A stretch of DNA of 64,000 nucleotides from Rhodanobacter sp. ANJX3 (GTDB lineage: Bacteria > Pseudomonadota > Gammaproteobacteria > Xanthomonadales > Rhodanobacteraceae), in NCBI RefSeq assembly GCF_014200755.1, contig NZ_JACHCM010000004.1, positions 434,001 through 498,000 of the forward strand. Reading direction: 5' to 3'. The translations under genes were made by a program, and so were the position numbers. Shown here piece after piece: positions 40,271 to 57,998 of this stretch (position 1 is the first letter of the stretch; each line of letters opens with the position of its first letter). A model generated the notes under the pieces. The model saw only the letters and a program-made list of their open reading frames with translations, had not been told where the DNA came from and made no database searches.

Positions 40271-41362
40271 TCAAACGCCGATGCGCAGGCCGCTGGCGGG
40301 ATCGAACAGGTGCAGGCGCTCGGCAGCCAGCCCCAGCGGCACCGTGCTGCCGGCCTCGGGCAAAGCGCGCGGCGACACGCGCGACACCAGCGCCTGGCTA
40401 CCGTAGCGCAGGTTGAGAAAGATCTCATTGCCGACCGGTTCGAGCACTTCGAGCTGTGCGATCAACGCTGCCTCATCCGCTTCCACGGGCAGCAGGTCTT
40501 CCGGACGCATGCCCAGCACGATCTCGCGATCGCGCCATTCCTGCCAGCCCGCCGCCTGCGCCGGCCGGCCCAGCATCACCTCGCCGTGCTCGGTCACCAC
40601 CGACCAGCCCCTGCCGAGAGTCAGCCTGCCGCGCAGCAGGTTCATGCCGGGACTGCCGACGAAGCCGGCTACGAACAAATTGGCCGGCCGGTCGTACAGA
40701 TGCATCGGCGTGTCGATCTGCTGGATCACGCCGCCGTCGAGTACCACGATGCGCTGGCCCAGCGTCATCGCCTCGATCTGGTCGTGCGTGACGTAGATCA
40801 TCGTGGCCTTGAGCTGGCGATGCAGCCGTGCGATCTCGACCCGCATGGTCAGCCGCAGCTTGGCATCCAGATTGGACAGCGGCTCGTCGAGCAGAAACAC
40901 TTTCGGATCGCGCACCAGCGCCCGACCGAGCGCCACGCGCTGGCGCTGACCGCCGGACAATGCACCTGGCCGCGATGCCAGCCGCGGCTCCAGTTCCAGG
41001 GTCTTGGCGGCCTCACGCACGCGGCGGTCGATCTCCCCTTTGGACTGGCCGCGCAGCTTCAGGCCGAAGGCCAGGTTTTCCGCTACGGTCATATGCGGAT
41101 ACAGCGCGTAGTTCTGGAACACCATCGCGATATCGCGATCCTTCGGTTCCACGTCGTTCACCACGCGACCGTCGATGCTCAGCGTACCGCCGCTGATCGA
41201 CTCCAGCCCAGCAATCATCCGCAACAACGTGGTCTTGCCGCAGCCCGATGGCCCGACCAGCACCAGCAGCTCGCCATCGGCGATATCGAAACTCGCGCCG
41301 GCGACGCCGACGTGGCCGCCGGGGTAAACCTTGCGCAGTTGATCCAGACGAACGGTGGCCAT
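40271..41362 (-). CDS. ugpC: Sugar ABC transporter ATPase (UgpC/MalK/MsmX type)
   Basis: 363 residues from MATVRLDQLRKVYPGGHVGV. Walker A is VGPSGCGKTTLLRMIAGLE, the Q-loop FQNYALYPHMTVAENLAFGLK, the signature LSGGQRQRVALGRALVRDP, Walker B VFLLDEPLSNLDAKLR and the switch VTHDQIEAMTLG. A MalK-type TOBE regulatory domain follows (about 235-363). The ATG at 41362 is chosen over 41368 because AGGAA then sits 6 bases away. It stands alone without permeases. Two MalF/MalG-like permeases and a binding protein without an ATPase lie at 52043-55066, and the two places share a LacI-type operator, so I infer that this is their ATPase. Confidence 0.93.
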   Translation of the reverse strand: MATVRLDQLRKVYPGGHVGVAGASFDIADGELLVLVGPSGCGKTTLLRMIAGLESISGGTLSIDGRVVNDVEPKDRDIAMVFQNYALYPHMTVAENLAFGLKLRGQSKGEIDRRVREAAKTLELEPRLASRPGALSGGQRQRVALGRALVRDPKVFLLDEPLSNLDAKLRLTMRVEIARLHRQLKATMIYVTHDQIEAMTLGQRIVVLDGGVIQQIDTPMHLYDRPANLFVAGFVGSPGMNLLRGRLTLGRGWSVVTEHGEVMLGRPAQAAGWQEWRDREIVLGMRPEDLLPVEADEAALIAQLEVLEPVGNEIFLNLRYGSQALVSRVSPRALPEAGSTVPLGLAAERLHLFDPASGLRIGV

Positions 41363-41452
41363 CGGCATTTCCTGTGCGGTCGGCCACAAAGGCCAGCATT
41401 CGGCGTGTGAAGGTGTCTGCACATCGGCGAAACATTCGGCTATTCTGCCTAC

Positions 41453-41464
41453 GTAATCGTTTAC
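41453..41464. promoter_or_regulatory. Candidate LacI-family operator between ugpC and the GH1 gene
   Basis: GTAATCGTTTAC matches the palindrome GTAAACGTTTAC at 11 of 12 positions, a typical LacI-family half-site pair. It lies 91 bases before the ugpC start and 41 before the beta-glucosidase start, so one bound repressor could control both divergent genes. A near-identical site precedes the lacI gene at 44722. Confidence 0.65.
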
Positions 41465-41504
41465 ATCAAGCCTTAATCACCCGTTTTCATCTGCAGGAAG
41501 CTCC

Positions 41505-42863
41505 ATGACCGGTCGTTTTCGTTTTCCCGAGGGTTTTCACTGGGGTGCCGCCACGTCGGCCTACCAGATCGAAGGTTCACCGCTGGCCGATGGCGCCGGC
41601 CCCAGCATCTGGCAGCGTTTTGCGCATACGCCAGGCATGATGTCCAACGGTGATACCGGCGACGTCGCCTGCGATCACTACAACCGCTACAAGGACGACG
41701 TGCAGCTGATGCGCGCGCTCGGCCTGCAGGGCTATCGCTTCAGCATCAATTGGGCACGCGTGCTGCCCGAGGGCACCGGCCGGGTCAACGCCAAGGGCCT
41801 GGGTTTCTATTCGCGCCTGGTGGACGAACTGCTGGAAAACGGCATCGTGCCGAACGCCACGCTGTTTCATTGGGACCTGCCGGCGGCGCTTGACGATCGT
41901 GGCGGCTGGCTCAACCGCGACGTCGCGCACTGGTTTGCCGATTACGCCGAAGTGATGTTCAAGGCGCTCGGCGATCGCGTGCCGCGCTGGGCCACGCTCA
42001 ACGAACCCTGGGTCGTCACCGACGGCGGCTACCTGCACGGCGCGCTGGCGCCCGGACACCGCAGCAAGTACGAGGCGCCGATCGCCGCGCACAATCTGAT
42101 GCGCGCCAGCGGCGCCGGTATCCAGGCGTATCGCGCGCACGGCAAGCACGAGATCGGCGTGGTGTTCAACATCGAGCCCAAGTACCCCGCCTCGGACAGC
42201 GCCGAGGATCTCGCCGCGACCAAGCGCGCCCACGCGTATATGAACAAGCAGTTTGCCGACCCGGCACTGCTCGGCAGCTATCCGCCCGAGCTGAAGGAAA
42301 TCTTCGGCGACGCGTGGCCGGATTTTCCGGAAGACGACTTCAAGCTGACGAATCAGAAGGTCGATTTCGTCGGCATCAACTATTACACCCGCGCCGTGGT
42401 CAAACACGACGTCGACGCGTATCCGCTGAAAGCCGTGCCGGTGCGCCAGCCCAACAAGACCTACACGGAAACCGGCTGGGAAGTGTTCGAGCAGGGCCTG
42501 ACCGACACGCTCACCTGGTTCAAGCACCGCTACGGCGACATTCCGCTGTACATCACCGAAAACGGCTCGGCTTTCTACGATCCACCGGTGGCGGAGAACG
42601 GTGTGCTGGACGACCCGCTGCGCACCAACTATCTACGCAAGCACCTCGGCGCCATGCACAAGGCGATCGAGGCGGGCGTCAATATCAAGGGTTATTACGC
42701 CTGGTCGCTGATGGACAACCTCGAATGGTCGCTGGGCTTCTCCAAGCGCTTCGGGCTCTACCACGTCGACTTCGCCACGCAGAAGCGCACGGCGAAGGCG
42801 ACGGCCAAACTCTACGCCCAGGTGATCGGGAGCAACGGCGCCGTGCTGGACGAACAGGGGTAA
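41505..42863 (+). CDS. bgl: GH1 beta-glucosidase
   Basis: 452 residues beginning MTGRFRFPEGFHWGAATSAYQIEG, the GH1 N-terminal signature. The acid/base glutamate is in WATLNEPWVVTDGGY (about residue 166) and the nucleophile in IPLYITENGSAF (about 351). The late SLMDNLEWSLGFSKRFGLYHVDF is also typical. No signal peptide, so it acts in the cytoplasm on imported beta-linked di- or oligosaccharides or on phospho-free glucosides. An AGGAAG site precedes the ATG. It is divergent from ugpC across a LacI-type operator and convergent with rsmG. Together with ugpC it splits the usual parA-rsmG neighbourhood. Confidence 0.94.
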   Translation: MTGRFRFPEGFHWGAATSAYQIEGSPLADGAGPSIWQRFAHTPGMMSNGDTGDVACDHYNRYKDDVQLMRALGLQGYRFSINWARVLPEGTGRVNAKGLGFYSRLVDELLENGIVPNATLFHWDLPAALDDRGGWLNRDVAHWFADYAEVMFKALGDRVPRWATLNEPWVVTDGGYLHGALAPGHRSKYEAPIAAHNLMRASGAGIQAYRAHGKHEIGVVFNIEPKYPASDSAEDLAATKRAHAYMNKQFADPALLGSYPPELKEIFGDAWPDFPEDDFKLTNQKVDFVGINYYTRAVVKHDVDAYPLKAVPVRQPNKTYTETGWEVFEQGLTDTLTWFKHRYGDIPLYITENGSAFYDPPVAENGVLDDPLRTNYLRKHLGAMHKAIEAGVNIKGYYAWSLMDNLEWSLGFSKRFGLYHVDFATQKRTAKATAKLYAQVIGSNGAVLDEQG

Positions 42864-42869
42864 ATCCAC

Positions 42870-42904: not shown

Positions 42905-42917
42905 CGGCACCCTGCAA

Positions 42918-43656: not shown

Positions 43657-43717
43657 CGGTTTGCCAGTCGTGCGAGCAACTCGGCCTATTTGACGCCAGT
43701 CGAGCGGCGCAATGGGC

Positions 43718-44696: not shown

Positions 44697-44721
44697 TTGC
44701 AAACACTTTACAAGCAGCCAT

Positions 44722-44733
44722 GAAAACGTTTAC
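44722..44733. promoter_or_regulatory. Candidate LacI-family operator upstream of lacI
   Basis: GAAAACGTTTAC matches GTAAACGTTTAC at 11 of 12 positions and lies 43 bases before the lacI start, a position suited to autoregulation and control of the genes downstream. The same motif with a different single mismatch occurs at 41453. Confidence 0.65.
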
Positions 44734-44775
44734 GTTCCCGCCACTGGGGGATTCCGGGGGTTAGCGAAGCTTGTC

Positions 44776-45798
44776 ATGGCAACCATCACGATCAAGGATG
44801 TAGCGCGCGAAGCCAACGTGTCGGTGGCTTCGGTGTCGCGTGCGCTGAACGGCGGCAGCGGCGTCACCGCCGAAACCGGCCAGCGCATTCGCGACGTGGC
44901 CCTGCGCCTGCGCTATATCCCGCACGCTGCGGCGCGCATGCTGATCACCCGTCGCACCAACACCATCGGCGCCCTGCTTCCGGATTTATACGGCGAATTC
45001 TTTTCCGAATTGATTCGCGGCATCGATCTGGCCGCCCGCGCGCACGGCTTGCATCTGCTGGTTTCCAGCTCCCACGACAGTTCCGAGGACGCCGCCGCGG
45101 CCCTGCGCGCCATGCAGGGCCGCGTCGACGGCATGCTGATCATGTCCGCGCACGTCGACGACGCATTCCTGCGCGCCAATCTGCCCGAGGATCTGCCGAC
45201 CGTACTGATCAACAGCCCGGTGCAAGATGAGGCCTACCGCGTCATCAACGTCGACAATTACGCTGGCGCGCGCGCGATGACCAAGCATCTGATCGACACC
45301 GGTCACCAGGACATTGCGTTTATTGCCGGCCCAGAGAACAACTTCGACGCACAGCAGCGCGAGAACGGCTATCGCGCGGCGATGGCCAAGTACGCGTCCA
45401 AGGTCGAACCCGTTGTCGTCGCCGGCGACTTCACCGAGGAAGCCGGCTTTCGCGCCGGTGAAGCACTGCTAGCTCGGAAGAAGCGACCGAATGCAGTATT
45501 CGCGGCCAACGACATGATGGCGGTCGGTTGCATGCACGCATTCCGCGAAGCCGGTGTCTGTGTACCCCAAGACATCGCTTTGGCCGGCTTCGACGATATT
45601 CCGGTCGCCCGTTATGTCGCGCCGCCCCTCAGCACGGTGCGCGTGCGCATCGTCGACCTCGGACGCAGCGCGCTCGAGGCTGTGGCGAGCATGCTGGAAA
45701 ACCCCGATCACCAAGTCACAGCCGGACCGACCTTCGGCTGCGAAATCGTTGTGCGCGAAACCTGCGGCGCCCGTGGCGCCCCAGCGTCCCACGAATAA
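44776..45798 (+). CDS. LacI-family transcriptional regulator of the sugar locus
   Basis: 340 residues from MATITIKDVAREANVSVASV. The LacI helix-turn-helix and hinge are TIKDVAREANVSVASVSRALNG, ending near YIPHAAARML. The sugar-binding core has IGALLPDLYGEFFSELIRGIDLAA, DGMLIMSAHVDD, DIAFIAGPENNFDAQQRENGYRAAM, NAVFAANDMMAVGCMHAFREAG and IALAGFDDIPVARYVAPPLSTVR, all standard. It lacks the C-terminal tetramerisation helix of E. coli LacI, so it is probably dimeric. It leads the 13-kb locus, 40 bases before the receptor gene, and a fitting operator lies upstream. The inducer is unknown; a di- or oligosaccharide from the glucan is likely. Confidence 0.94.
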   Translation: MATITIKDVAREANVSVASVSRALNGGSGVTAETGQRIRDVALRLRYIPHAAARMLITRRTNTIGALLPDLYGEFFSELIRGIDLAARAHGLHLLVSSSHDSSEDAAAALRAMQGRVDGMLIMSAHVDDAFLRANLPEDLPTVLINSPVQDEAYRVINVDNYAGARAMTKHLIDTGHQDIAFIAGPENNFDAQQRENGYRAAMAKYASKVEPVVVAGDFTEEAGFRAGEALLARKKRPNAVFAANDMMAVGCMHAFREAGVCVPQDIALAGFDDIPVARYVAPPLSTVRVRIVDLGRSALEAVASMLENPDHQVTAGPTFGCEIVVRETCGARGAPASHE

Positions 45799-45838: not shown

Positions 45839-48800
45839 ATGAAAACGTCAACGCGCTTCAAGAAGAAATTGCTCGCCAGTCTGATCACGGCATCGGTTAC
45901 CGCGATCGCTGCGGGTGTACCCAGTATGTCGGTCGCGGCGAGTGCCGATGCCAACCTTCGAGGACATGCCGCTCCTGGAGCCGTGATAACGGCCAAGCAG
46001 ATTTCCACCGGTGCCGTTCGTCGCACCAAGGCCGACACGGACGGCAGCTATGCGCTGGTCGGCTTGCCGCCGGGCACGTATCAGGTCGATGCCGGTCCGG
46101 GAACCGAAAGAACCGTCACGCTGAGCGTAGCCTCCACCGCGTCTCTCGACCTGCTTGCGGCGGCCGCCAACGCACCATCGACCGCCAACGCCACCAACCT
46201 CAACGGCGTCACCGTGTCGGCCACCGATCTGCGCGAAGTCAAAACGTCGGAAGTCGGCACCACGGTCTCGCTGCATCAGATCAACACCACGCCGCAAGCC
46301 TCGCGCAACTTCCTCGAGTTTGCCGACGTCGTGCCGGGTATGGTTTTCACCCGGAGCGCCGATGGCACCACCAGCCTACGCGCCGGTGCTCAGGCGACAT
46401 CGGCCATCAACGTGTATATCGACGGCGTCGGCCAGAAGAACTACGTGCTGTCGGGCGGCGTCACCGGCCAGAACAACAGCCAGGGCAATCCGTTCCCGCA
46501 ACTTGCCGTCGGCGAATACAAGGTCATTACCTCCAACTACAAGGCGGAATACGACCAGATATCGAGCGCCGCCGTGACCGCCGAAACCAAGTCCGGCACC
46601 AATGAATTCCACGGCGATGTGCTGGGCAGTTTCACCAACACGGCCATGCGTGCGGAAACGCCCGCCGAACAGGCCGCCGACAAGAAAACGTCGTCGCATG
46701 AAAAGGATTATGGATTCGATCTGGGCGGTCCGATTGCGAAGGACCTGGCGCACTTCTTCATTGCTTACGAAGGCAAGGAATTCGATAGCCCGACGACCGT
46801 CGTCCCGGCCGGTGACGCTTCTTACATCAGCCAGCTGCCCACAAGCGTGCAGAGCCTGCTGGGCCCAGCCAGCCTGCCGTTCAAGGAAAACGACTGGTTC
46901 GGCAAGATAGACTTCGAGCCGACCGACCGCGATCGTTTCGAAATAAGCGGCAAATATCGCGATGAAAGCGCGATCAGCGGCATTGGTGGGCCTATCGCTG
47001 CCACCGCCGCACTCAATACCAAGAACTTCGACAAACGCTTCGATATCCGCTGGGATCACAGCACGGACAGCTGGTTCAACCGTTTGCAGGCAACCTACGA
47101 AAATGCTTTCTACACGCCAACGCCTGTGTTTACCGGTGACGGCAGCGCCTACGTCGAGCAGCAGAACCAGAACCAGACCATTCTGACTACCGGCAACTCG
47201 CCGCTGTCCCAGCAGAACAAGGGTCAGAAAGGTCCGGCGCTGCAGGACGACCTGACCTTCAACGACTTCGAATGGCATGGCGACCACGTCATCAAGATGG
47301 GCGTGAAGTACAAGGAGGCGAAGCTCACCGCACAAGACGCTGGCGACACGAACGCGCTCTACAGCTACGCCGTCAGCCAGAACAATGGCACCGAGAGCAT
47401 TCCGTATCAGGTGCAGTTCGGCTCGCCTACACCGGGCTTGAGCCCGGTGGCGAGAAGCTCGGACAAACAGTTCGGTACGTATATCCAGGACGACTGGGCG
47501 GTCAACGACAAGCTGACCTTGAACCTCGGCATCCGCTGGGATTACGAGAAAACGCCGTCGTACCTCAACTACGTCACGCCGCAAAATGTCATCGACGCCT
47601 TCAACAGCCAGGATCCCAACGCGCCGCCGGGCCAGACCTATGCCCAGACGCTGGCTAAAGGCGGCGTCAATGTAAACGATTACATCAGTACGGGTCACAA
47701 CCGCAGCGCGCCGAAGAACGAGTTCCAGCCAAGGCTGGGCTTCTCCTACGACCTCAACGGCGACGAGGCGCACGTGATCTTTGGCGGCATCGGCCGCTCT
47801 TACGACCGCGACCTGTACGAGGCTTTGCAGGTCGAACAGACCAAGTCGGTCCTGTCGCAGCCAACGCTGCTTTTCAATACACCCGACAAACCCTGCGTCG
47901 TGGGGCAGAACTCCTGCTACGCGTGGGATCCGAAGTACTACCAGATTCCCAATCTGCAGGCGCTCGTGGCAGGCAGCACCTCCGGCAAGGAAGTCGATCT
48001 GATCACCAACAACCTGAAGGCGCCGTATTCCGACCAGCTCAGTCTCGGCATGCGCAACAAGCTGGGCGACTGGAATACCAGCGCCGCGGTGGCCTATGTG
48101 CACAGCCACGATGGTTTGGTCTACACGCTCGGCAACCGCTATCCGGACGGCGCTTTCTGGCAGAACGGCAGCCAGCCCTGGGGCAACGGTATTCCCGGTT
48201 TCGGCAGCCTGATCATCGGCAACAACGGCTTGGTCACTAAGACCACTCAGGTACTGCTGTCAGCCGAAAAACCGTACACCCACGAATCCGGCTGGGGCGC
48301 GACCATTGCCTACACCTACACCCATGCGCTGCAGAACAACGACAACAACTCGCCGGACGACCAGTACGCATTCGATTACGAGACGATCGGCAACTACCCG
48401 TATACCGGCTCGGGCGTTTCCAAACATCGCCTGGTCGCCACCGGGACCATCGACGGCCCCTGGGGCTTCGTGTTCGGCTCCAAGCTGACGCTTTCCACGC
48501 CAGTACCCGATCTCAACCTGGCTTGCTACGGGGCCGCTGCCACCAATCAAGATGCCAACGGTATCAACGGTGCGGGCTGTCGGTCGGTGTCGTTTGCTCC
48601 GGCGGCCACCGGCCGCTTTCTGATCGGTGGAAAGTTCTTCGGCTATCGCGACATCGATTTTCAGGCAACGAAGAATTTTACCTTCTACGGCGGCCTGGGT
48701 GGCTACGTCCGGCTGGACCTGATCAACGCGTTCAACTGGGACAACTACACCGACTATATTGAAACCTTCGGCGCCAACGGCGTGCTCAACAAGGTACGCG

Positions 48801-48874
48801 TTTCGTACAACCCGACCGGCGAAATCACCGGCTACACGCGCACGCTGAAAGTATCCGTAGGCATCAACTTCTAG
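45839..48874 (+). CDS. TonB-dependent outer-membrane receptor, Oar-like
   Basis: 1011 residues from MKTSTRFKKKLLASLITASV, with a signal peptide ending near SVAA-SADA. An N-terminal carboxypeptidase-regulatory-like domain (about 30-115) contains DGSYALVGLPPGTYQVDAGPG. A TonB-box-like GVTVSA precedes the plug (about 130-260: RNFLEFADVVPGMVF, AINVYIDGVGQKNYVLSGG, YKAEYDQISSAAVTAETKSGTNEFHG), followed by a beta-barrel ending in LKVSVGINF with a terminal Phe. This is the Oar/CarboxypepD_reg receptor type common for sugar uptake in Xanthomonadales. GGGGAGGGG precedes the ATG. It would bring oligosaccharides into the periplasm. A terminator follows it. Confidence 0.94.
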   Translation: MKTSTRFKKKLLASLITASVTAIAAGVPSMSVAASADANLRGHAAPGAVITAKQISTGAVRRTKADTDGSYALVGLPPGTYQVDAGPGTERTVTLSVASTASLDLLAAAANAPSTANATNLNGVTVSATDLREVKTSEVGTTVSLHQINTTPQASRNFLEFADVVPGMVFTRSADGTTSLRAGAQATSAINVYIDGVGQKNYVLSGGVTGQNNSQGNPFPQLAVGEYKVITSNYKAEYDQISSAAVTAETKSGTNEFHGDVLGSFTNTAMRAETPAEQAADKKTSSHEKDYGFDLGGPIAKDLAHFFIAYEGKEFDSPTTVVPAGDASYISQLPTSVQSLLGPASLPFKENDWFGKIDFEPTDRDRFEISGKYRDESAISGIGGPIAATAALNTKNFDKRFDIRWDHSTDSWFNRLQATYENAFYTPTPVFTGDGSAYVEQQNQNQTILTTGNSPLSQQNKGQKGPALQDDLTFNDFEWHGDHVIKMGVKYKEAKLTAQDAGDTNALYSYAVSQNNGTESIPYQVQFGSPTPGLSPVARSSDKQFGTYIQDDWAVNDKLTLNLGIRWDYEKTPSYLNYVTPQNVIDAFNSQDPNAPPGQTYAQTLAKGGVNVNDYISTGHNRSAPKNEFQPRLGFSYDLNGDEAHVIFGGIGRSYDRDLYEALQVEQTKSVLSQPTLLFNTPDKPCVVGQNSCYAWDPKYYQIPNLQALVAGSTSGKEVDLITNNLKAPYSDQLSLGMRNKLGDWNTSAAVAYVHSHDGLVYTLGNRYPDGAFWQNGSQPWGNGIPGFGSLIIGNNGLVTKTTQVLLSAEKPYTHESGWGATIAYTYTHALQNNDNNSPDDQYAFDYETIGNYPYTGSGVSKHRLVATGTIDGPWGFVFGSKLTLSTPVPDLNLACYGAAATNQDANGINGAGCRSVSFAPAATGRFLIGGKFFGYRDIDFQATKNFTFYGGLGGYVRLDLINAFNWDNYTDYIETFGANGVLNKVRVSYNPTGEITGYTRTLKVSVGINF
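47672..47683. promoter_or_regulatory. Operator-like sequence inside the receptor gene
   Basis: GTAAACGATTAC within the receptor coding sequence is the exact reverse complement of the operator at 41453, and identity extends to 14 bases (ATGTAAACGATTAC). It encodes residues VNDY, so it may be chance, but an auxiliary LacI site inside a gene would fit DNA looping. Confidence 0.3.
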
Positions 48875-48950: not shown

Positions 48951-48973
48951 TGCGACACGATGAGCGCTTTTCG

Positions 48974-50494
48974 ATGACAGCTGACCGCATCAAAAACATT
49001 CTTATCGTCGGTGGCGGCACGGCCGGCTGGATGGCTGCATCTGCGATGGCCAAGGTACTTGGCCCCGGTTATTCGATACGCCTGATCGAGTCGGAAGAGA
49101 TCGGCATCGTCGGCGTGGGTGAGGCGACAGTGCCGCATCTGAAGCTGTTCAACGACCTGCTCGGCATCGACGACATCGAGTTCGTCAAACAGACCCAGGG
49201 CACGTTCAAGCTCGGCATCCAGTTCAATGACTGGGGTCAGCTGGGCGACTCGTATATTCATGGCTTCGGCAGCATCGGCCACGACATCAGCCTGCTGCCT
49301 TTTCATCAGTTCTGGATCAAGGCCCGTCAGTTGGGTCTCGCGACCGACATCGGCGCGTATTCGATCAATACCGTAGCGGCGCCGCGCGGCAAGTTCATGC
49401 CGTCGGCGACGGACGTTCCCGCCGGTTCGCCGCTGGCGGATATCGCGTACGCCTATCACTTCGACGCCGGGCTGTACGCCAAATTTCTGCGCGGCTACGC
49501 CGAGCGCATCGGCGTGACGCGCACCGAGGGCAAGATCGCGCAGACGCGCCTCCGTGCGGACGACGGCTTTGTCGAATCCGTTGTTCTGGAAAGCGGCGAA
49601 ACCATCGAGGCCGATCTTTTCATCGACTGCTCGGGCTTTCGCGGGTTGCTGATCGAACAGGCGCTGCATACCGGCTATATCGATTTCACCCACTGGCTGC
49701 CGTGCGATCGGGCGCTCGCAGTACCCTGCGAAAAGGTCGGGCCGCCCACGCCGTATACGCGCTCGACCGCGCGCGCGGCCGGCTGGCAGTGGCGCATTCC
49801 GCTGCAGCACCGTACCGGCAACGGCTACGTTTACTCCAGCGCACACCTCAGCGACGACAAGGCGGCCGCCACGCTGCTGAAGCATCTCGACGGTCGCCCA
49901 CTGGCCGAACCGCGACCGCTGCGCTTTACCACCGGCATGCGCCGCAAGGGCTGGAACAAGAACGTGGTCGCACTCGGCCTGGCCAGTGGGTTCATGGAAC
50001 CGCTGGAATCGACCAGCATCTATCTGATCCAGTCCGGCATCACCCGTCTGCTGAGCCTGTTTCCGCAGCGCGATTGCAGCACGGTTCTGGCCGACCGCTA
50101 CAACGCACAAACAGCCTTCGAGTTCGAGCGCATCCGCGATTTTCTGATCCTGCACTACTGCGCGACCCAGCGCGACGACACGGCGTTCTGGAACGACTGC
50201 CGCACCCTGTCGATTCCTGAATCGCTGCGGGAAAACATGCGCTTGTTCGAGGATAGCGGGCGCTTCTATCGCAACGCCGAAGAGATGTTCGCCAGCGTGA
50301 GCTGGGTGCAGGTGATGATCGGCCAAGGGATCGTGCCACAGGGCTATCACCCGATGGTCGATCAGATGCCGCAGGACGACCTGCAGAAATTCATGGCCAG
50401 CGTGGGTCACGTGATCTCCAGCTGCGTCGATGCGATGCCGATGCATCAGGCGTTTATCGACCGGCATTGCGCCGCGCCAAAGGTGACTTTCTAA
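48974..50494 (+). CDS. Tryptophan-halogenase-family flavoprotein
   Basis: 506 residues from MTADRIKNILIVGGGTAGWM. The FAD motif GGGTAGWMAA, the IGIVGVGEATVPHLK stretch, the lysine in QGTFKLGIQF (Lys79 by count, the position of the catalytic lysine in PrnA), and the flavin-halogenase motif GWQWRIPLQHRTGNGYVYSS are all present, as is GFMEPLESTSIYLIQSGI. The catalytic parts look intact, so halogenation of an indole or other aromatic is possible. However, in Xanthomonadales and Caulobacterales such genes recur next to TonB receptors in sugar loci, and their real substrate there is not established. No tryptophan-related gene is nearby. Confidence 0.9.
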   Translation: MTADRIKNILIVGGGTAGWMAASAMAKVLGPGYSIRLIESEEIGIVGVGEATVPHLKLFNDLLGIDDIEFVKQTQGTFKLGIQFNDWGQLGDSYIHGFGSIGHDISLLPFHQFWIKARQLGLATDIGAYSINTVAAPRGKFMPSATDVPAGSPLADIAYAYHFDAGLYAKFLRGYAERIGVTRTEGKIAQTRLRADDGFVESVVLESGETIEADLFIDCSGFRGLLIEQALHTGYIDFTHWLPCDRALAVPCEKVGPPTPYTRSTARAAGWQWRIPLQHRTGNGYVYSSAHLSDDKAAATLLKHLDGRPLAEPRPLRFTTGMRRKGWNKNVVALGLASGFMEPLESTSIYLIQSGITRLLSLFPQRDCSTVLADRYNAQTAFEFERIRDFLILHYCATQRDDTAFWNDCRTLSIPESLRENMRLFEDSGRFYRNAEEMFASVSWVQVMIGQGIVPQGYHPMVDQMPQDDLQKFMASVGHVISSCVDAMPMHQAFIDRHCAAPKVTF

Positions 50495-50579: not shown

Positions 50580-52046
50580 ATGGCAAAAAAACTGCTTCGC
50601 ACCCTCGCTACCAAACTTCTTGTCTCGCTTCTCGTCGTCGGCATCGGCGGTGTCTCTGCGCTATCTGCCAGAGACGTCCCCACTGGCTACGCTGCGTTGG
50701 CAAAGCCGCAGCAGGCGATGGTGGCGGATATCGAAAAACGCAGCTTCGACTGGTTCTGGCAGAGCGCCAACCCCGTCAACGGCCTGATACCGGACCACTA
50801 CCCGGCGGATTCGTTTGCCAGCATCGCGTCGGTCGGCTTTGGCCTGACCGCGTACGGCATCGGTGTGGAGCGCGGCTACATCACGCGCGACCAGGCGATC
50901 GATCGAACCCTGGCCACGCTGCACTTTTTCAAGGAAGCGCCGCAGAACGACAGCGAGGACGATGCCACCGGCTACCACGGCTTTTTCTATCACTTCCTCA
51001 ATATGCAGACCGGCAAACGCGAGGCGCGCTGGGTCGAAGTATCCACCGTGGATACCTCGCTGCTGCTCGGCGGCATCCTGTTCGCGCAGTCGTATTACGA
51101 CCGCGACACGCCGAAGGAAAAGGAAATCCGTCAGCTGGCCGACGCCATTTATCGCGGCGTCGACTGGACCTGGGCACAGCCTCGCGCGCCACTGATCAAT
51201 ATGGGCTGGACGCCCGGCGGCAAGTTCATACCGCACGACTGGGAAGGCTACAACGAAGGCATGCTGATCTACGTGTTGGCGCTGGGCTCGCCGACGCATG
51301 CCGTGGGCAGCGATGCGTGGGCGGCGTGGACGTCCACCTACGATCGTCAGTGGGGCAAGTTTCAGGGGCAGCAGCTGCTGAACTTCGCGCCGCTGTTCGG
51401 CCACCAGTACAGCCAGTCGTGGATCGATTTTCGCGGCATCCGCGATGCGTGGAACCGCCAGCACGATCTGGACTATTTCGAGAACAGCCGCCGCGCGGCC
51501 TACTCGCAGCAGGCGTATGCGATCGCCAACCCGGGCCATTGGAACGACTACGGCAAAAACATCTGGGGCCTGACCGCCAGCAACGGCCCCGGCGGTTTCG
51601 TGGTGAAGGATGCCGGCGGCGAGCGCACGTATTACGGCTACACCGCACGCGGTGCGGGGATGGATTACATCAGCGACGACGGCACCATCGCACCGACGGC
51701 TGCGGCCGGCTCGATCGCCTTTGCACCGGAAATCGTGGTGCCCGCACTGCAGGAAATGCAGCGCCGCTACGGCAAGCGCGTGTACAACCGATTCGGCTTC
51801 GTCGACGCGTTCAACCCTACCTTCCACACCAAAACCGAGACGCGCACCGGTCAGCTGCTGCCAGGCCAGGGCTGGTTTGACACCGAACAGCTGGGTATCG
51901 ACCAGGGTCCGATCGTGCTGATGAGCGAGAACTGGCGCAGCGGTTTTGTCTGGCGGGTGATGCGGAAGAACCCCTATATCCGCAAGGGGCTCGAGCGCGC
52001 CGGCTTCACCGGCGGCTGGCTGGATGCGGAGAAGGCAGCGCCGTGA
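50580..52046 (+). CDS. PF10091/GH144-like glucanase
   Basis: 488 residues from MAKKLLRTLATKLLVSLLVV, with a signal peptide ending near ALSA-RDV, so it acts in the periplasm or outside. Family sequences include SFDWFWQSANPVNGLIPDHYP, SIASVGFGLTAYGIGVERGYI, WVEVSTVDTSLLLGGILFA and FIPHDWEGYNEGMLIYVLALGSPTH, matching the PF10091 glycoamylase family. Characterised stand-alone members of this group (GH144) are endo-beta-1,2-glucanases, and the same domain is built into cyclic beta-1,2-glucan synthases such as the gene at 13536. I therefore suggest it cleaves a beta-1,2-glucan, by family only. Its stop overlaps the next start as GTGA. Confidence 0.85.
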   Translation: MAKKLLRTLATKLLVSLLVVGIGGVSALSARDVPTGYAALAKPQQAMVADIEKRSFDWFWQSANPVNGLIPDHYPADSFASIASVGFGLTAYGIGVERGYITRDQAIDRTLATLHFFKEAPQNDSEDDATGYHGFFYHFLNMQTGKREARWVEVSTVDTSLLLGGILFAQSYYDRDTPKEKEIRQLADAIYRGVDWTWAQPRAPLINMGWTPGGKFIPHDWEGYNEGMLIYVLALGSPTHAVGSDAWAAWTSTYDRQWGKFQGQQLLNFAPLFGHQYSQSWIDFRGIRDAWNRQHDLDYFENSRRAAYSQQAYAIANPGHWNDYGKNIWGLTASNGPGGFVVKDAGGERTYYGYTARGAGMDYISDDGTIAPTAAAGSIAFAPEIVVPALQEMQRRYGKRVYNRFGFVDAFNPTFHTKTETRTGQLLPGQGWFDTEQLGIDQGPIVLMSENWRSGFVWRVMRKNPYIRKGLERAGFTGGWLDAEKAAP

Positions 52047-53353
52047 ATCGCCTTCGCTCACTGCGCATCTTTCGCTATCGACGCCTGTGGTCGGTCGGCC
52101 TTCTGCTATGCCTTGGCGCGCTTGGCAGCTGCGCGAAAACCACGGTAGACGATAACGCGCTGGTGTTCTGGACGATCGGTCGGGAAGGCGAAGCCATCGC
52201 CAAACTGCTGCCGGATTTCGAACGCCTAAATCCGGATATCCACGTCAAGGTGCAGCAGCTGCCGCTGACCGCCGCCCACCAGAAACTGCTGACCGCCTTC
52301 GCCGGCAACTCGACGCCGGACCTGACCCAGCTCGGCAACACCTGGCTGCCGGAAATGGTGGCGCTGGATGCGCTGGAACCGCTGCAGTCGCGCGTCGATC
52401 GTTCGAGCATCGTGAAACGCGACGATTACTTCCCGAGCATCTGGTCGACCAATCTGATCGACGGCACGCTGTACGGGGTACCGTGGTATGTCGATACGCG
52501 CATTCTGTTCTATCGCACCGATCTGCTGAAGCAGGCCGGCTTCGACCGCTCGCCGCAGGACTGGGCGCAGTGGCGAAACGTTCTCGGCGCACTCAGCGAT
52601 CCTGCAAGGCACCGCTACGGCATTCTGCTACCGACGAATGAATACGAACCGCTGATGGCGCTGGCGCTGCAGTCACCCGACCCGCTGCTGCGCGACGGCG
52701 GACGCTACGGCAACTTCGAAAGCGCGGGCTTCAAGCGGGTGCTGACGTTTTATGTGGACACGTTCAAGCTGCATCAGGCACCGGCGATCACCAATGTCGA
52801 AGCCGGCAACCCGTGGTCCGAATTCGGCCGCGGCGTCTACGCGTTTTATCTTTCCGGCCCTTGGAATATCGGCGAGTTTCGCTCACGCCTTCCCGCTACC
52901 GAACAGGCCGACTGGTCGACGATGCCGCTGCCCGGTGAGAACGGCCCCGGCGCATCGGTGGCCGGCGGCTCCAGCCTGGTGATCTTTCGCACGTCCACGC
53001 ACAAGCAGGCGGCGTGGACGCTGATCGAATACCTGTCGCAGCCGGCGGTGCAGCAGCGCTTCTACGATCTGCTGGGCGACATGCCGCCGCGGCGGTCGTC
53101 GTGGGAAGGTGCCAGCCTGCGCGACGACCCGAAGGCGCACGCCTTCCGCGAACAGATGGAACGTATGAAACCGACACCGCCGGTGCCGGAATGGGAGCGC
53201 ATCGCCAGCGAGATGCAGCTCGTCGCGGCGCAGGCCATCGCCGGCGAACTCAGCATCGACCAGGCGACGGCAAAACTCGATCAGCGTACCGACGCGATTC
53301 TCGAGAAGCGTCGCTGGATGCTCGATCACTCGCTGCGGAGCGACGCACGATGA
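52043..53353 (+). CDS. Sugar ABC transporter substrate-binding lipoprotein
   Basis: 436 residues with a GTG start overlapping the previous stop. The N-terminus has a positively charged leader, a hydrophobic stretch and the lipobox LGSC, so it is membrane-anchored. VFWTIGREGEAIAKLLPDFERLNPDIHVKVQQLP, PDLTQLGNTWLPEMVALDALEPL, GTLYGVPWYVDTRILFYRTDLLKQAGF and FYLSGPWNIGEF are typical of family 1 (MalE-like) sugar-binding proteins. It delivers oligosaccharides to the two permeases that follow. Start choice is set by the 4-base coupling with the hydrolase gene. Confidence 0.93.
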   Translation: MNRLRSLRIFRYRRLWSVGLLLCLGALGSCAKTTVDDNALVFWTIGREGEAIAKLLPDFERLNPDIHVKVQQLPLTAAHQKLLTAFAGNSTPDLTQLGNTWLPEMVALDALEPLQSRVDRSSIVKRDDYFPSIWSTNLIDGTLYGVPWYVDTRILFYRTDLLKQAGFDRSPQDWAQWRNVLGALSDPARHRYGILLPTNEYEPLMALALQSPDPLLRDGGRYGNFESAGFKRVLTFYVDTFKLHQAPAITNVEAGNPWSEFGRGVYAFYLSGPWNIGEFRSRLPATEQADWSTMPLPGENGPGASVAGGSSLVIFRTSTHKQAAWTLIEYLSQPAVQQRFYDLLGDMPPRRSSWEGASLRDDPKAHAFREQMERMKPTPPVPEWERIASEMQLVAAQAIAGELSIDQATAKLDQRTDAILEKRRWMLDHSLRSDAR

Positions 53354-53363: not shown

Positions 53364-54248
53364 ATGAACAAGCAGCGCATGGCATGGCTATTCCTGGCAC
53401 CGGCACTGATCGTGCTGGGGCTGTTCTTTCTGCTGCCGGTAATTGCGGCGCTGGCGCTGAGCCTGACAGACTACGATATCTATGCGCTGGCGAATATCCA
53501 CAACCTGCGCTTCGTGGCGCTGAGCAATTACTGGCTGCTGCTGCAGCGGCCGCTGTTCTGGTCGGCGCTCGGGCACACGGTGTATTTCGTCGCCGTCGGC
53601 GTACCGCTGTCGATGGGAGCTTCACTGGGCGCCGCCATGCTGCTGAACTCGCCGCTGGCACGGATGAAGCCGTTCTTCCGCACCGCGCTGTTTGCGCCAG
53701 TGGTGACCACGGTGGTGGCGATGGCGGTGATCTGGCGCTACCTGTTCAACACCAAGTACGGCATAGCCAACTATGTGCTCGGACATTTGGGCGTCCATCC
53801 GATCGACTGGCTCGGCGATCCGCACTGGGCCATGCCGACGATCATTCTGTTCGCTGTGTGGAAGAACTTCGGCTACAACATGATCATCTTTCTGGCCGGC
53901 CTGCAGGCGATTCCGATCGATCTGTACGAGGCCGCCCGCATCGACGGCGCCTCGGCGTTGCGGCAGTTCCGCCACATCACCCTGCCGATGCTGGGGCCGA
54001 CGCTGTTGATGGTGAGCATTCTCACGGTGTCGGGCTATTTCCAGCTGTTCGCCGAACCCTATGTCATGACCGAGGGTGGGCCACTGCAGAGCACGACCAG
54101 CGTGCTGTACCTGATGTACGAGGAAGGTTTCAAGTGGTGGAATCTTGGCTCGGCCTCCGCCGTGGCCTTTCTGCTTTTCCTGATCATGTTTGCGGTGACG
54201 GCGATGATGCTGCGCCTGTCCCGGCGCAGCGAAGGAGCCGACGCATGA
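53364..54248 (+). CDS. Sugar ABC transporter permease, MalF type
   Basis: 294 residues with six hydrophobic helices. MAWLFLAPALIVLGLFFLLPVIAAL is the usual first helix and EAARIDGASALRQFRHITLPML the EAA loop that contacts the ATPase. The sequence GGPLQSTTSVLYLMYEEGFKW is typical of the MalF/UgpA group. It forms the membrane channel with the next gene; the stop overlaps that start as ATGA. Neither permease has an ATPase beside it, and the lone UgpC-type ATPase at 40271 is the best candidate partner. Confidence 0.94.
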   Translation: MNKQRMAWLFLAPALIVLGLFFLLPVIAALALSLTDYDIYALANIHNLRFVALSNYWLLLQRPLFWSALGHTVYFVAVGVPLSMGASLGAAMLLNSPLARMKPFFRTALFAPVVTTVVAMAVIWRYLFNTKYGIANYVLGHLGVHPIDWLGDPHWAMPTIILFAVWKNFGYNMIIFLAGLQAIPIDLYEAARIDGASALRQFRHITLPMLGPTLLMVSILTVSGYFQLFAEPYVMTEGGPLQSTTSVLYLMYEEGFKWWNLGSASAVAFLLFLIMFAVTAMMLRLSRRSEGADA

Positions 54249-55066
54249 GCCCGCGCATGGCCAAGGCAATGATCAACGGGCTGCTGATCGGCGGCGCCGT
54301 GATCGCGCTGTTTCCGCTTTTGTGGATGCTGTCCGTGTCTTTCATGCAGCCGGGCGAGGCCAGCTCGCTGCCGCCGCCGCTGCTGCCATCGCATGCAACA
54401 CTCAACAACTATCGCGAGCTGTTCGTGCATGCCGGCATGGGTACGTACCTGCTCAACAGCCTGCTGGTATCGGGTGCCATCACGCTGCTGTCGCTGTCGT
54501 TCAATCTGATGGCCGGCTATGCCTTCGCCAAGCTGCGCTTCGCCGGGCGCGAGCGCCTGTTCCAGGCGCTGATTGGCGCGTTGGTGATTCCCGCCCAGGT
54601 CGCGATGTTGCCGCTTTTTCTGTTGCTGAAATACATCGGACTGGTGAACAGCTATGCCGGCGTGATCGTGCCCGGGATGGCCACGGTGTTCGGCATCTTT
54701 CTGGTGCGCCAGTATGCGCGCGGCATTCCCGACGAGTTGATGGAAGCCGCGCGCATCGACGGCGCGGGCGAATGGCGGATCTTTCTGCAGATCGTGATGC
54801 CGCTGCTGAAGCCGATCATGGTGACGCTGGCGATCTTCAGTTTTCTCGCCGCTTGGAACGATTTCATGTGGCCGCTGATCGTGCTGACCGGGCAGGAACA
54901 TTACACCCTGCCGATCGGGCTGGCCTCGCTGGCGCGTGAGCACTCGCAGGACAGCGAACTGATGATGGCCGGTTCGGTCGTCACCGTGCTGCCCGTGCTG
55001 GTGCTGTTTCTGGCGATGCAGCGCTATTACCTGGAAGGTCTGCTGCTGGGCAGCGTCAAAGGCTGA
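54245..55066 (+). CDS. Sugar ABC transporter permease, MalG type
   Basis: 273 residues from MSPRMAKAMINGLLIGGAVI. Six helices; TYLLNSLLVSGAITLLSLSFNLMAGYAFAKLRFAG and the EAA loop EAARIDGAGEWRIFLQIVMPLLKPIM are classical MalG/UgpE sequences, followed by AWNDFMWPLIVLTGQEHYTLPIGL. The start overlaps the previous stop by four bases. The larger open frame that begins upstream at 53384 is only the shifted reading of the first permease gene joined to this one. Confidence 0.94.
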   Translation: MSPRMAKAMINGLLIGGAVIALFPLLWMLSVSFMQPGEASSLPPPLLPSHATLNNYRELFVHAGMGTYLLNSLLVSGAITLLSLSFNLMAGYAFAKLRFAGRERLFQALIGALVIPAQVAMLPLFLLLKYIGLVNSYAGVIVPGMATVFGIFLVRQYARGIPDELMEAARIDGAGEWRIFLQIVMPLLKPIMVTLAIFSFLAAWNDFMWPLIVLTGQEHYTLPIGLASLAREHSQDSELMMAGSVVTVLPVLVLFLAMQRYYLEGLLLGSVKG

Positions 55067-55112
55067 GGCAGGCAGAGGTTGAAACACACGGGATAGGGCA
55101 GGCAGGGTAGAA

Positions 55113-57998
55113 ATGATGATGGTTAAGCCATTGAAGCGCGTGTGCATTGACGTTTGTCGCCCTGGCGGCGCGACGCTGATGGCTGGCCTGTTGCTGACGT
55201 TAGCCGTCGCGGGGCATGCGGCAAAGATGCCTTCCGTCGAAGCGTTGGATGATTTCAGCCACCCGGACGCCTGGAAGGCCACCGGCACTGATGACATCAG
55301 TACGTCGGTAAAAGCGGTCAAGGGCAAAAGCGGCAATGCCGTCTGCGTGGATTTCAATTTCAACGGCGTGTCCGGCGGTGTGACGCTGCACCGCGCGCTG
55401 CCTATCCGGTTCCCCGCCAACTATGCGCTGTCGTTCGACGTGCGTGGTGCGATGCCGGCGAACGATCTGCAGCTGCGCCTGGTCGATGCCAGTGGCGACA
55501 ATGTGTGGTGGTACCGTCACGAGGCGTTTCAGCCCGGCGAAAACTGGCAGACGATCGAGGTCGGCAAGCGGGATATCGATTTCGCCTGGGGAACCGCCAA
55601 GGACAAGGTGTTGCACCAGAGCAGTGCGATCGAGTTCACCGTCTACGCCGGCCACGGCGGCAAGGGCGAGCTTTGCTTCGGCAACCTGCGCCTGACGCCG
55701 CTGCCGGTGACCGCTGCTTCGGAACAGACTACGCCAACCGAAGATCCGAACAAGACCCCGCTGGTGCAGCAGGCGCGGCGTGCGGTACGCGGTATGTACC
55801 CGCGCGGTCTCAGCGGCGAACAGAGCTACTGGACTCTTGTCGGCGTCGATGGTGGCGCGCCGCATTCGGCACTGATGTCCGAAGACGGCGCGATCGAGGT
55901 GGGCAAGGGCGGCTGGTCGATCGAGCCGATGCTGTTCGATGGCCATACGGTCATCGATTGGGCGACGGTAAAAACGCAGCAAAAGCTTTTGGACGGCTAT
56001 TTGCCGATACCCACGGTACGCTGGCAGGCGAACGGCCTAAGTCTGGAGACGACCACCTTCGCCAGCGGCACGCCAAAGGATTCGAACCTCTTCGCGCAGT
56101 ATCGGCTGCATAACGACGGCGACGCGCCACGCTCGCTGATGCTCGCGCTGCTGGTCCGGCCGTTCCAGGTCAATCCGCCGACGCAGTTCCTGAATATGAA
56201 ATCAGGCATCAGCCCGATCCACGATCTGGACTGGAGCGGCCGCGCGCTGCGCGTGAACGATTCGCAACAGATCGTGCCGTTGCAGGCGCCGTCTGCCTTT
56301 GTGGCCAGCCCACATGGCACGGTCACCTTGCCCGAAAAGCTGGCCAGCGGCACACCGGCGAAAATCGATGCGGGCATCGAGAAGGCCTCACTGCACGACG
56401 GCTCCGGCTACGCTCAGGGCGCACTGCTCTACAGACTCACCTTGCCCGCGCATGGCGAGGCAACGCTCGGGCTCGTCGTGCCCAACCTGGGCGCTACCGG
56501 GGAACAGCCGTCGTTCGCGCTGCCACCAGATGCTGCGCAGTGGCTTCGGCAGCAGCAGGATCAAACCGCGGCGGCCTGGCGCGAAAAGCTCAACCGCGTC
56601 ACGCTGCAGCTGCCCGACGGACAGCAGGCCATCGCCGATACCGCGCGCAGCACGCTGGCGCAAATTCTGATGTCGCGCGACGGCGACGCGCTGCAGCCGG
56701 GCACGCGCTCCTACGCTCGTTCGTGGATCCGCGACGGCGCCATGATGAGCGAGGCTCTTCTGCGCAGTGGCCACGCCGACGCGGCCGGCGACTTTATCAA
56801 CTGGTACGCACCGCAGCAGTTTCATACCGGCAAGGTGCCCTGCTGCATCGACAAGCGCGGCGCCGATCCGGTGCCCGAGAACGACAGCCAGGGCGAGCTG
56901 ATTTTCGCCATCGCGCAGTGGTGGCGCTACAGCGGCGATCGCACCGGCCTGGAAAAATTGTGGCCGCACGTCGAACAAACCGTCGCCTATATGGACACGC
57001 TGCGCGCAAGCGAGCGCACATCCGTCAACGCCGCGGATGCGAAGCGTGCCCTGTATGGACTGATGCCCGCATCGATCAGTCACGAAGGTTACTGGGCCAA
57101 GCCCATGCATTCGTACTGGGACGATTTCTGGTCGCTGATCGGCTATCAGGATGCCGTGCAGCTGGCCACGGCGCTGGGCAAGACCGAAGAGACAAAGAAA
57201 TTTGCCGCCTCGCGCGATCAGTTCCAGGCCGATCTGAAGGCCTCGATCCTGCTGGCCATGCAGCAGCATCACATCGACTACGTTCCGGGCTCGGCCGAGC
57301 TCGGCGATTTCGACGCGACCTCGACCACGATCGCCCTGTCGCCTGGCGATGCCATCGACTGGCTGCCACCGGACCTGCTGCCACGCACATTCGAACGCTA
57401 CTGGCAAAATTTCATCGCGCGTCGCGACGGCAAGCAGCCGTGGACCGACTACACACCGTACGAAATCCGTACCATCGGCAGCTTCGTGCGGCTGGGCTGG
57501 CGCGATCGACTGCAGCAGCTGTTTACGTTCTTTTTCGACGGCCGCCGCCCGGCGGCATGGAACCAGTGGGCCGAAGTGGTCGGACACGACCCGCGCCAAC
57601 CGCGCTTTGTCGGCGACATGCCGCACGCGTGGATCGCCTCGGATTTCATGCGCTCGGTTTACGACATGTTTGCCTATGAGCGCAGCAGCGATCGCGCGCT
57701 GGTGTTGGCGGCCGGCATCTCACCGGCGTGGATGGGCGGCAAGGGTGTCGGCATCGCGCACTTGCGCACCCCGTACGGGGAACTGAGTTATTCGCTGCGG
57801 GAAACCGGCACGGCACTCGAACTGAAGATCGACGGCGGCCTGACCGTGCCACCCGGCGGTCTGGTTCTACCATGGCCTTACCCGGGCAAGCCAGGCGCAA
57901 AAAACGCGTCGCTGGATGGGCGTCCGGTGATGTGGCGCGGCGACGAAATCGTCATTCGCCGCGTTCCTGCCCAATTGCGCGTGCAGCACCCGCGCTGA
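55113..57998 (+). CDS. Large exported glycosidase with carbohydrate-binding-like N-terminal domain
   Basis: 961 residues with an N-terminal hydrophobic segment ending near AVAGHA-AKM, so probably exported. Residues about 40-205 form a jelly-roll-like sugar-binding domain (ALDDFSHPDAWKATGT, LSFDVRGAMPANDLQLRLVDASG). The C-terminal half is an (alpha/alpha)6 glycosidase: RSWIRDGAMMSEALLRSGH, NDSQGELIFAIAQWWRYSGD, WDDFWSLIGYQDAVQLA, YTPYEIRTIGSFVRLGWRD and FVGDMPHAWIASDFMRSVYDM. I cannot name the GH family; it resembles proteins annotated in Xanthomonas as discoidin-domain or six-hairpin glycosidases. It closes the sugar locus, followed by a hairpin. Confidence 0.82.
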   Translation: MMMVKPLKRVCIDVCRPGGATLMAGLLLTLAVAGHAAKMPSVEALDDFSHPDAWKATGTDDISTSVKAVKGKSGNAVCVDFNFNGVSGGVTLHRALPIRFPANYALSFDVRGAMPANDLQLRLVDASGDNVWWYRHEAFQPGENWQTIEVGKRDIDFAWGTAKDKVLHQSSAIEFTVYAGHGGKGELCFGNLRLTPLPVTAASEQTTPTEDPNKTPLVQQARRAVRGMYPRGLSGEQSYWTLVGVDGGAPHSALMSEDGAIEVGKGGWSIEPMLFDGHTVIDWATVKTQQKLLDGYLPIPTVRWQANGLSLETTTFASGTPKDSNLFAQYRLHNDGDAPRSLMLALLVRPFQVNPPTQFLNMKSGISPIHDLDWSGRALRVNDSQQIVPLQAPSAFVASPHGTVTLPEKLASGTPAKIDAGIEKASLHDGSGYAQGALLYRLTLPAHGEATLGLVVPNLGATGEQPSFALPPDAAQWLRQQQDQTAAAWREKLNRVTLQLPDGQQAIADTARSTLAQILMSRDGDALQPGTRSYARSWIRDGAMMSEALLRSGHADAAGDFINWYAPQQFHTGKVPCCIDKRGADPVPENDSQGELIFAIAQWWRYSGDRTGLEKLWPHVEQTVAYMDTLRASERTSVNAADAKRALYGLMPASISHEGYWAKPMHSYWDDFWSLIGYQDAVQLATALGKTEETKKFAASRDQFQADLKASILLAMQQHHIDYVPGSAELGDFDATSTTIALSPGDAIDWLPPDLLPRTFERYWQNFIARRDGKQPWTDYTPYEIRTIGSFVRLGWRDRLQQLFTFFFDGRRPAAWNQWAEVVGHDPRQPRFVGDMPHAWIASDFMRSVYDMFAYERSSDRALVLAAGISPAWMGGKGVGIAHLRTPYGELSYSLRETGTALELKIDGGLTVPPGGLVLPWPYPGKPGAKNASLDGRPVMWRGDEIVIRRVPAQLRVQHPR

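Follow-up and report, generated by a model that had tools for sequence, protein, structure and literature searches.

A predicted LacI-repressed beta-1,2-glucan uptake regulon in two pieces, with a candidate operator inside its receptor gene, in Rhodanobacter sp. ANJX3

The 64-kb stretch of Rhodanobacter sp. ANJX3 DNA analyzed here (the window) belongs to contig C4 of a 4.65-Mb genome and carries the genes of a putative glucan uptake system in two pieces. The larger piece, the main cluster, consists of eight forward-strand genes spaced −4 to +96 bp apart that run from lacI (44776) to the end of the last glycosidase gene (57998). They encode a LacI repressor, a receptor, a halogenase-like protein, a GH144 enzyme, a binding protein, two permeases (malFG, 53364-55066) and a 961-amino-acid (961-aa) glycosidase-like protein. 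No gene for an ATP-binding cassette (ABC) ATPase or a cytoplasmic glucosidase was found between 44776 and 57998. The smaller piece holds exactly such a pair, ugpC and a GH1 beta-glucosidase gene, which diverge across a 139-bp gap (Table 1); for ugpC, a start at 41365 was preferred over 41422, and the GH1 protein, in which no signal peptide was seen by eye, is predicted to be cytoplasmic. Unless stated otherwise, ugpC and malFG refer to the copies in the window. An earlier reading of this DNA from its letters (the sequence-only reading) had reported the content, direction and coordinates of the eight genes and placed the missing ATPase and glucosidase at 40271-42863, and our gene calls agree. 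Its separation of 11 kb holds for the distance from ugpC/GH1 to the first permease gene (∼10.5 to 12 kb), but the pair lies only 1.9 kb from lacI, with 3.4 kb between the ugpC and lacI starts. It had overlooked an operator inside the receptor gene and a gene for a cyclic beta-1,2-glucan synthase.

Near-identical copies of an operator with the consensus ATGTAAACGTTTACAT were identified between ugpC and GH1 (O1; core GTAATCGTTTAC, 41453-41464) and before lacI (O2; core GAAAACGTTTAC, 44722-44733), as the sequence-only reading had stated. A third copy, O3 (core 47672-47683), lies within the receptor coding sequence (CDS) and gave the best operator score in the window (30.8 bits). Across the whole genome, the pattern GWAAWCGWTTAC was found at four distinct places, positions 41453, 44722 and 47672 of the window and C4:239505, and a reversed control pattern at none; operators are clustered here far more than chance would allow. 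Inspection by eye revealed a promoter-like TTGATG-N17-AGAATA on the ugpC strand, with O1 beginning in the end of TTGATG and spanning most of the 17-bp spacer. Among 22 sequences compared, TATTCT was kept in 21 and ATCAAG in 14, and Luteibacter sequences carried GTCA in place of the ATCAAG part, most of them being TTGAC-like there when read on the opposite strand. O2 begins 7 bp behind a −35-like hexamer, TTTACA (by eye; TTGACA in locus L021). The placement of both operators would fit occlusion of RNA polymerase.

TABLE 1 Predicted genes and operators of the window
Feature	Coordinates	Strand	Basis
Cyclic beta-1,2-glucan synthase (NdvB/CGS type)	13536..22262	+	8rf0, 2046 bits over residues 91-2872; GH94 and glycoamylase domains
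ugpC, MalK/UgpC-type (CUT1) ABC ATPase	40271..41365	-	NCBIfam NF008653, 479 bits (cut-off 432); ABC_tran, OB_MalK, TOBE_2
Operator O1, ACGTAATCGTTTACAT	41451..41466		Between ugpC and GH1
GH1 beta-glucosidase	41505..42863	+	PF00232, 516 bits; TIGR03356, 581 bits (above cut-off)
Operator O2, ATGAAAACGTTTACGT	44720..44735		Before lacI
lacI-family repressor	44776..45798	+	PF00356, 50.6 bits; PF13377, 125 bits
TonB-dependent-receptor-like outer-membrane protein	45839..48874	+	PF25183, PF13620, PF00593
Operator O3, ATGTAAACGATTACAT	47670..47685		Inside receptor CDS, codons AAT GTA AAC GAT TAC ATC (NVNDYI)
Flavin-dependent tryptophan-halogenase-like protein	48971..50494	+	PF04820, 671 bits; best PDB matches 9luq, 6y1w, 6frl
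GH144 beta-1,2-glucanase, predicted secreted (signal peptide by eye)	50580..52046	+	PF10091, 280 bits; 8xul (XCC2207/XcSGL), 600 bits
ABC solute-binding protein, lipobox by eye	52043..53353	+	PF01547; 3uor, 507 bits; 5ysb (Lin1841), 222 bits
malF/ugpA-type permease	53364..54248	+	PF00528, 71 bits; NCBIfam UgpA best, below cut-off
malG/ugpE-type permease	54245..55066	+	PF00528, 71 bits; NCBIfam UgpE best, below cut-off
961-aa glycosidase-like protein, signal peptide by eye	55113..57998	+	AlphaFold, Foldseek; no Pfam family

To follow these features in relatives, the best 80 of 95 loci from a GH144 protein scan (L001 to L080, each containing GH144 by design of the search) were mapped; the nearest by GH144 identity were the Rhodanobacter loci L001 (99%) and L002 (92%). 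Sites matching at least 11 of 12 operator positions lay within 200 bp upstream of 33 of 38 lacI copies (>200 bits, forward strand; those without were in L028, L031, L050, L054 and L058) and in 13 of 16 ugpC/GH1 intergenic regions, the rest scoring 10/12 (L025 and L028) or 9/12 (L033). A score matrix trained on 31 upstream sites identified 73 sites of at least 20 bits in the 1,483,952 bases of the mapped loci, 71 of them at regulon positions, a count that includes the training sites; the moved ugpC copies, the intragenic sites and a pattern scan of the family, all described below, are better evidence. The other two were in a pair of Asticcacaulis loci, ∼310 bp ahead of GH144. The exact core TGTAAWCGWTTACA occurred in 27 of 59 genomes of the family (34 sites; control, 0). 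Twenty-seven places were fetched, one per genome, with the window's own counted and some genomes the same as those searched earlier: 12 were at ugpC/GH1, 4 upstream of lacI, 2 inside receptor genes (L131 and the window) and 9 elsewhere. All nine Luteibacter clusters had an extra operator 18 to 234 bp before the GH144 match. Palindromic, CG-centered operators at the putative target promoters are conserved along with the regulator, as expected of a LacI regulon, and binding of the cluster LacI to them is predicted.

The ugpC/GH1 pair occupied several positions relative to the cluster. The arrangement of the window (ugpC and GH1, rsmG, a slipin-like gene, then the main cluster) recurred in eight loci (L001, L002, L008, L015, L019, L023, L026 and L032). 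The sequence-only reading had proposed a comparison of gene order, and among the mapped loci this found the pair joined to the cluster in eight: downstream of malG in six Rhodanobacter loci with no rsmG in the locus (L021, L022, L024, L025, L027 and L044), after malG in L033 and before lacI in L028. The pair was absent from the fetched stretch in Luteibacter, Dyella and Frateuria loci.

Moved copies were sought in 19 genomes chosen from loci with no nearby ugpC; among other loci lacking one, L030, L034, L050, L053, L054, L058 and those from Firmicutes did not enter this search. The 27 ATPase places found at E ≤ 1e−70 comprised 16 orthologous ugpC genes (66 to 81% identity), one each in 16 of the 19 genomes, and 11 paralogues (44 to 50% identity). 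An operator was identified upstream of all 16 orthologues and none of the 11 paralogues, five of which came from genomes also holding an operator-bearing ugpC and six from G016, G018 and G019, a weaker control. The orthologue was ∼0.4 to 0.5 Mb from GH144 on the same contig in G003, G005, G006 and G007, on a separate contig in G001, G011, G013 and G014, ∼3 kb beyond the cluster in G017 and on a short contig in G015. A glucokinase gene followed GH1 in five genomes (G001, G003, G011, G013 and G014), forming a remote ugpC/GH1-glk unit, and no glucokinase match followed GH1 in G015 or G017. In Luteibacter (L097 to L103, L105 and L106), ugpC diverged from a glucokinase gene across an operator in nine of nine loci; no GH1 orthologue was matched at 1e−100 in any of them, and a replacement was not found. 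Import, hydrolysis and phosphorylation thus appear to be grouped around one operator in these units. The ANJX3 genome itself has three glucokinase-family genes, none of them in the window.

Some observations weigh against the view that these operators define one regulon. Orthologous ugpC was not found in 3 of the 19 genomes (the distant G016, G018 and G019), and an automatic promoter scan listed nothing at the operators, the hexamers above having been named by eye. The nine exact sites away from regulon genes indicate a core of general LacI-family type; one of them, in a member of the same genus (L147), adjoins a GH13 amylase gene, and another LacI regulon in a sister species may use the same operator word. 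The fourth site in the ANJX3 genome (C4:239505; score, 22.8) adjoins a protease-like gene with no glucan link and was taken as a chance or unrelated occurrence.

TGTAAWCGWTTACA occurs in exact form once in the genome, within O3. The conservation of O3 was followed in a codon alignment of 40 receptor open reading frames (ORFs), with synonymous shuffling within each gene (500 shuffles). The full site at NVNDYI was found in four receptors (the window, L001, L002 and L023), and its score was reached in 3, 3, 0 and 4 of 500 shuffles, respectively. In a second receptor type, all eight members (L005, L014, L015, L017, L018, L019, L020 and L032) had a site at another position, encoded by AAT GTA AAC GTT TTC ATC (NVNVFI; TTT for TTC in L032), with scores reached in 0, 0, 1, 0, 0, 0, 0 and 4 shuffles in that order. 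Among 458 degenerate columns with identical amino acids in these eight receptors, 94 were also identical in codon, and a codon rarer than 0.2 was used in only 4 of those, including both the GTA and the GTT of the operator site. In L131, a first-type receptor 61% identical to that of the window, the second position (SVNVYI) held a perfect site. Shared ancestry inflates these counts. All 12 sites of at least 20 bits inside matched regulon genes of the mapped loci were in receptor genes; the intragenic hit of L025 is the lacI operator within an over-long frame.

That O3 is a functionless accident of encoding NVNDYI is a possibility to be taken seriously, if a rather unlikely one. It would agree with the restriction of the full NVNDYI site to four receptors, at least two from near relatives of the window, and with the absence of the site from L008, L021, L025 and L044, which encode the same residues with AAC GTC codons. 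In L010, which has these residues too, the site is weaker (22.6 bits; 44 of 500 shuffles score as high), 27 of the 40 receptor ORFs are without any intragenic site of 20 bits, and no third operator was found in the six loci with ugpC/GH1 downstream of malG. An accident would not account readily for the unique TGTAAWCGWTTACA, the few shuffles that reach these scores, the rare GTA and GTT at a different position in all receptors of the second type or the confinement of intragenic sites to receptors. The presence of sites at two positions in two receptor types argues for repeated selection. The intragenic sites are accordingly presented as candidate selected operators and O3 as a candidate auxiliary operator. 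We lean toward the proposal that selection repeatedly wrote the repressor's operator into the receptor CDS, forcing rare synonymous codons, and that O3 either ties the split regulon together by O1/O2/O3 looping over 3.0 to 6.2 kb or halts transcription within the receptor gene. Operators within the CDS of regulated genes are familiar from Escherichia coli, with lac O2 in lacZ and gal OI in galE. Like lac O2, O3 is a full operator inside the CDS of a putatively regulated gene and may contribute to repression; the difference is that here operators stand at two nonhomologous places in two receptor types. By eye, no obvious tetramerization tail was present in the cluster LacI, so looping would need a helper.

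The GH144 protein matched XcSGL (8xul, XCC2207) with 600 bits and CpSGL (5gzh) with 171 bits. According to PMC12102758, XcSGL has been shown by experiment to hydrolyze beta-1,2-glucan, and the SGL-clan residues are E239, F286 and Y367 in its numbering. The window enzyme aligned E, F and Y at all three positions, given a +14 offset between the 8xul chain and the published numbering that was deduced from four residues; at position 239 the 8xul chain carries Q and is presumably a mutant. By family and clan residues, the enzyme belongs to the GH144 beta-1,2-glucanases, and this activity is predicted for it. The binding protein matched 3uor (507 bits), then Lin1841 (5ysb; 222 bits), with the next match at 116 bits, and Lin1841 binds sophoro-oligosaccharides (PMC12369401). 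A full-length cyclic beta-1,2-glucan synthase gene also resides in the window; it is treated here as context and not as a regulon member. Together, the likeness to XcSGL, the clan residues, the likeness to Lin1841 and the resident synthase strengthen the guess of the sequence-only reading that the substrate is a beta-glucan, possibly beta-1,2-linked. MdoG/OpgG, a possible further source of glucan, gave no match in a search of the ANJX3 genome.

It is improbable that the system imports another glucan or alpha-glucosides of the maltose type, with GH144 incidental. Such a substrate would be suggested by 3uor, the closest solved binding protein, which we take to be the Xanthomonas 'MalE' (the database entry reads sugar binding protein), by the fold of the last glycosidase, which resembles the GH15 dextran dextrinase, and by the breadth of the GH1 family. 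Retention of GH144 across loci proves nothing on this point because every locus was chosen by a GH144 search. The experimentally characterized activity of the close relative XcSGL, the clan residues kept and a second binding-protein relative, Lin1841, well above the next argue for beta-1,2-glucan.

A further alternative, in which different LacI paralogues read the ugpC/GH1 and lacI operators so that there is no single regulon, appears very improbable. Six LacI-family proteins are encoded in the genome, O1 and O2 differ at two core bases, and LacI operators look alike. The cluster LacI has a helix-turn-helix domain at residues 5 to 49 and a periplasmic-binding-like sensor; its recognition helix (SVASVSRAL) is unlike those of four paralogues (SLKTVSRVI, SKITVSRAL, SQSTVSRAL and SISAVSRTF; the fifth, L125, was left out), and SVA(S/T)VSRAL recurs in most of the cluster LacIs compared. 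No site above 10.8 bits was found in the paralogue stretches (L121 to L125), and a single base separates the two sites of Luteimonas (L051, GGAAACGATTAC; L086, GAAAACGATTAC).

The partner of the isolated ATPase was approached by elimination. A UgpC-family search of the genome gave two proteins above the curated cut-off, ugpC (479 bits) and an ATPase on C5 (C5:113503-114600; 461 bits), and a third match on C2 (272 bits) that adjoins its own permeases; a PF00528 search gave 12 permease places. In this genome, ugpC was the sole CUT1 ATPase found with no adjacent permeases and malFG the sole CUT1 permease pair found with no adjacent ATPase. The parts list of a CUT1 importer is complete (binding protein, two permeases and a MalK/UgpC-type ATPase with an OB/TOBE domain), with its predicted ATPase encoded apart. 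Elimination in the genome, gene order in relatives and the operator kept at moved ugpC genes support the prediction that UgpC energizes MalFG, and with it the joint regulation and transport partnership proposed in the sequence-only reading. Least probable of the alternatives is that the C5 ATPase, also UgpC-type, energizes MalFG while ugpC serves something else: MalK-type ATPases can serve several importers, but the C5 gene is preceded by binding-protein and permease genes of its own (two permeases) and adjoins a mannitol-dehydrogenase-like gene (names by eye), no other CUT1 permease pair was found for ugpC to serve, ugpC has the operator in common with the cluster, and its counterparts in six Rhodanobacter loci and L033 stand downstream of malG. 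Orphan sugar ATPases of the MsiK type are likewise encoded apart from their permeases and are shared by several importers; ugpC differs in being left with one dedicated partner by elimination.

The remaining products of the main cluster were also characterized. The receptor has an N-terminal carboxypeptidase-regulatory-like domain and matched barrel families (PF25183, 175 bits; PF00593, 31 bits), with no plug family among the matches at 1e−3. The halogenase-like protein contains WQWRIP and candidate K and E residues, found by eye. Flavin-dependent halogenases are marked by PF04820 with an FAD motif, WxWxIP and a catalytic Lys and Glu; by these the protein would be one, and halogenation is predicted. 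Its gene is accessory and missing from many orthologous clusters; it was on the forward strand in 15 mapped loci and on the opposite one in L050 and L058, and all eight loci whose receptor is of the second type lacked it. The 961-aa protein gave no Pfam match at 1e−3. Its AlphaFold model (pLDDT, 81.8) has an N-terminal beta domain followed by a helical barrel like those of GH15, GH94 and GH95 proteins, and Foldseek returned 9ju0 (GH15 dextran dextrinase) as the best match, followed by GH94 phosphorylases and GH95, with TM scores of just ∼0.4 to 0.5. A role in opening or trimming the glucan is our guess. Members of the family neighbor GH144 in taxa ranging from Lysobacterales to metagenome-assembled Bacteroidetes and Kryptoniota, and 17 aligned relatives shared 40 to 85% identity with the window protein. 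A second GH144 gene (L153, C6:231279; 42% identical) was rejected as a regulon member, no site above 10.8 bits being present in the 13 kb fetched.

The cyclic beta-1,2-glucan synthase gene is followed by one for glucose-6-phosphate dehydrogenase, and genes for a transaldolase and a phosphoglucomutase-type enzyme lie close by. The order rsmG-parA-parB (38428-43538) is broken by ugpC/GH1 in the clade of the window and intact in L003, L005, L014, L018 and L020. In that clade ugpC stands directly upstream of parA, which was visible beyond ugpC in three of the eight window-type loci (L015, L019 and L032), the others ending at the flank. Sugar control of parAB through read-through from ugpC was considered and set aside, as parA seems to keep its own promoter-like element with or without the insertion: a −10-like element (TAATCTAG, ACACTA or similar, by eye) was found ∼50 bp upstream of parA in 9 of 10 loci, and L032 gave no parA start.

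From the genes, the operators and the conservation of the latter, all read from sequence, we infer what is very probably a LacI-repressed beta-1,2-glucan uptake regulon in two pieces. Extracellular beta-1,2-glucan, perhaps the cell's own cyclic glucan, would enter through the outer-membrane receptor and be cut in the periplasm by GH144 and perhaps also the 961-aa glycosidase. The binding protein would capture the product, MalFG would import it with energy supplied by UgpC, encoded apart from them, and GH1 would hydrolyze the imported sugar to glucose in the cytoplasm. One LacI occupying the near-identical operators in both promoter regions could control both pieces and would be released by an imported sugar; O3 would probably strengthen repression, either through loops with the other operators or as an obstacle to elongating polymerase.

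Related systems share parts of this arrangement. The Xanthomonas campestris XCC2207-XCC2208 (XcSGL) neighborhood, deduced from locus numbers, likewise has a GH144 acting on beta-1,2-glucan, and no joint regulon with a remote ATPase is described for it in the source text available. Listeria innocua lin1839-1841 and Streptomyces griseus SGR_2422-2427 also combine a binding protein, ABC transporter genes and a beta-glucosidase for beta-1,2-gluco-oligosaccharides, and SGR_2426 is a GH1 enzyme like that of the window; these Gram-positive clusters differ in having no outer-membrane receptor and other glycosidase families, and 'LacI' appears 0 times in PMC12369401. The Xanthomonas sux CUT locus shares a LacI-type repressor (SuxR), a receptor, an inner-membrane transporter and a sugar gene; unlike the split regulon proposed here, it is a single locus for sucrose with a major-facilitator transporter, according to PMC1790865. 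Searches of open-licence PMC text listed no paper that, judged by title and abstract start, treats this regulon, a halogenase in a glycan cluster or a LacI-type operator within a receptor coding sequence, which is no proof of absence.

The proposed system is ordinary in kind and well supported, and its unusual element would be the operators in the receptor coding sequence, which offer a way to test whether an internal operator places synonymous codons under selection. The ATPase occurs in at least four settings within Lysobacterales with its operator moving along, a natural experiment on how a scattered regulon could stay whole. The analysis predicts what an ATPase named for glycerol phosphate by automatic annotation does and which permeases it works with, and the related Xanthomonas 'MalE' (3uor) may bind beta-1,2-gluco-oligosaccharides. 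As the host seems able to make cyclic beta-1,2-glucan, recycling of its own glucan by this system can be tested.

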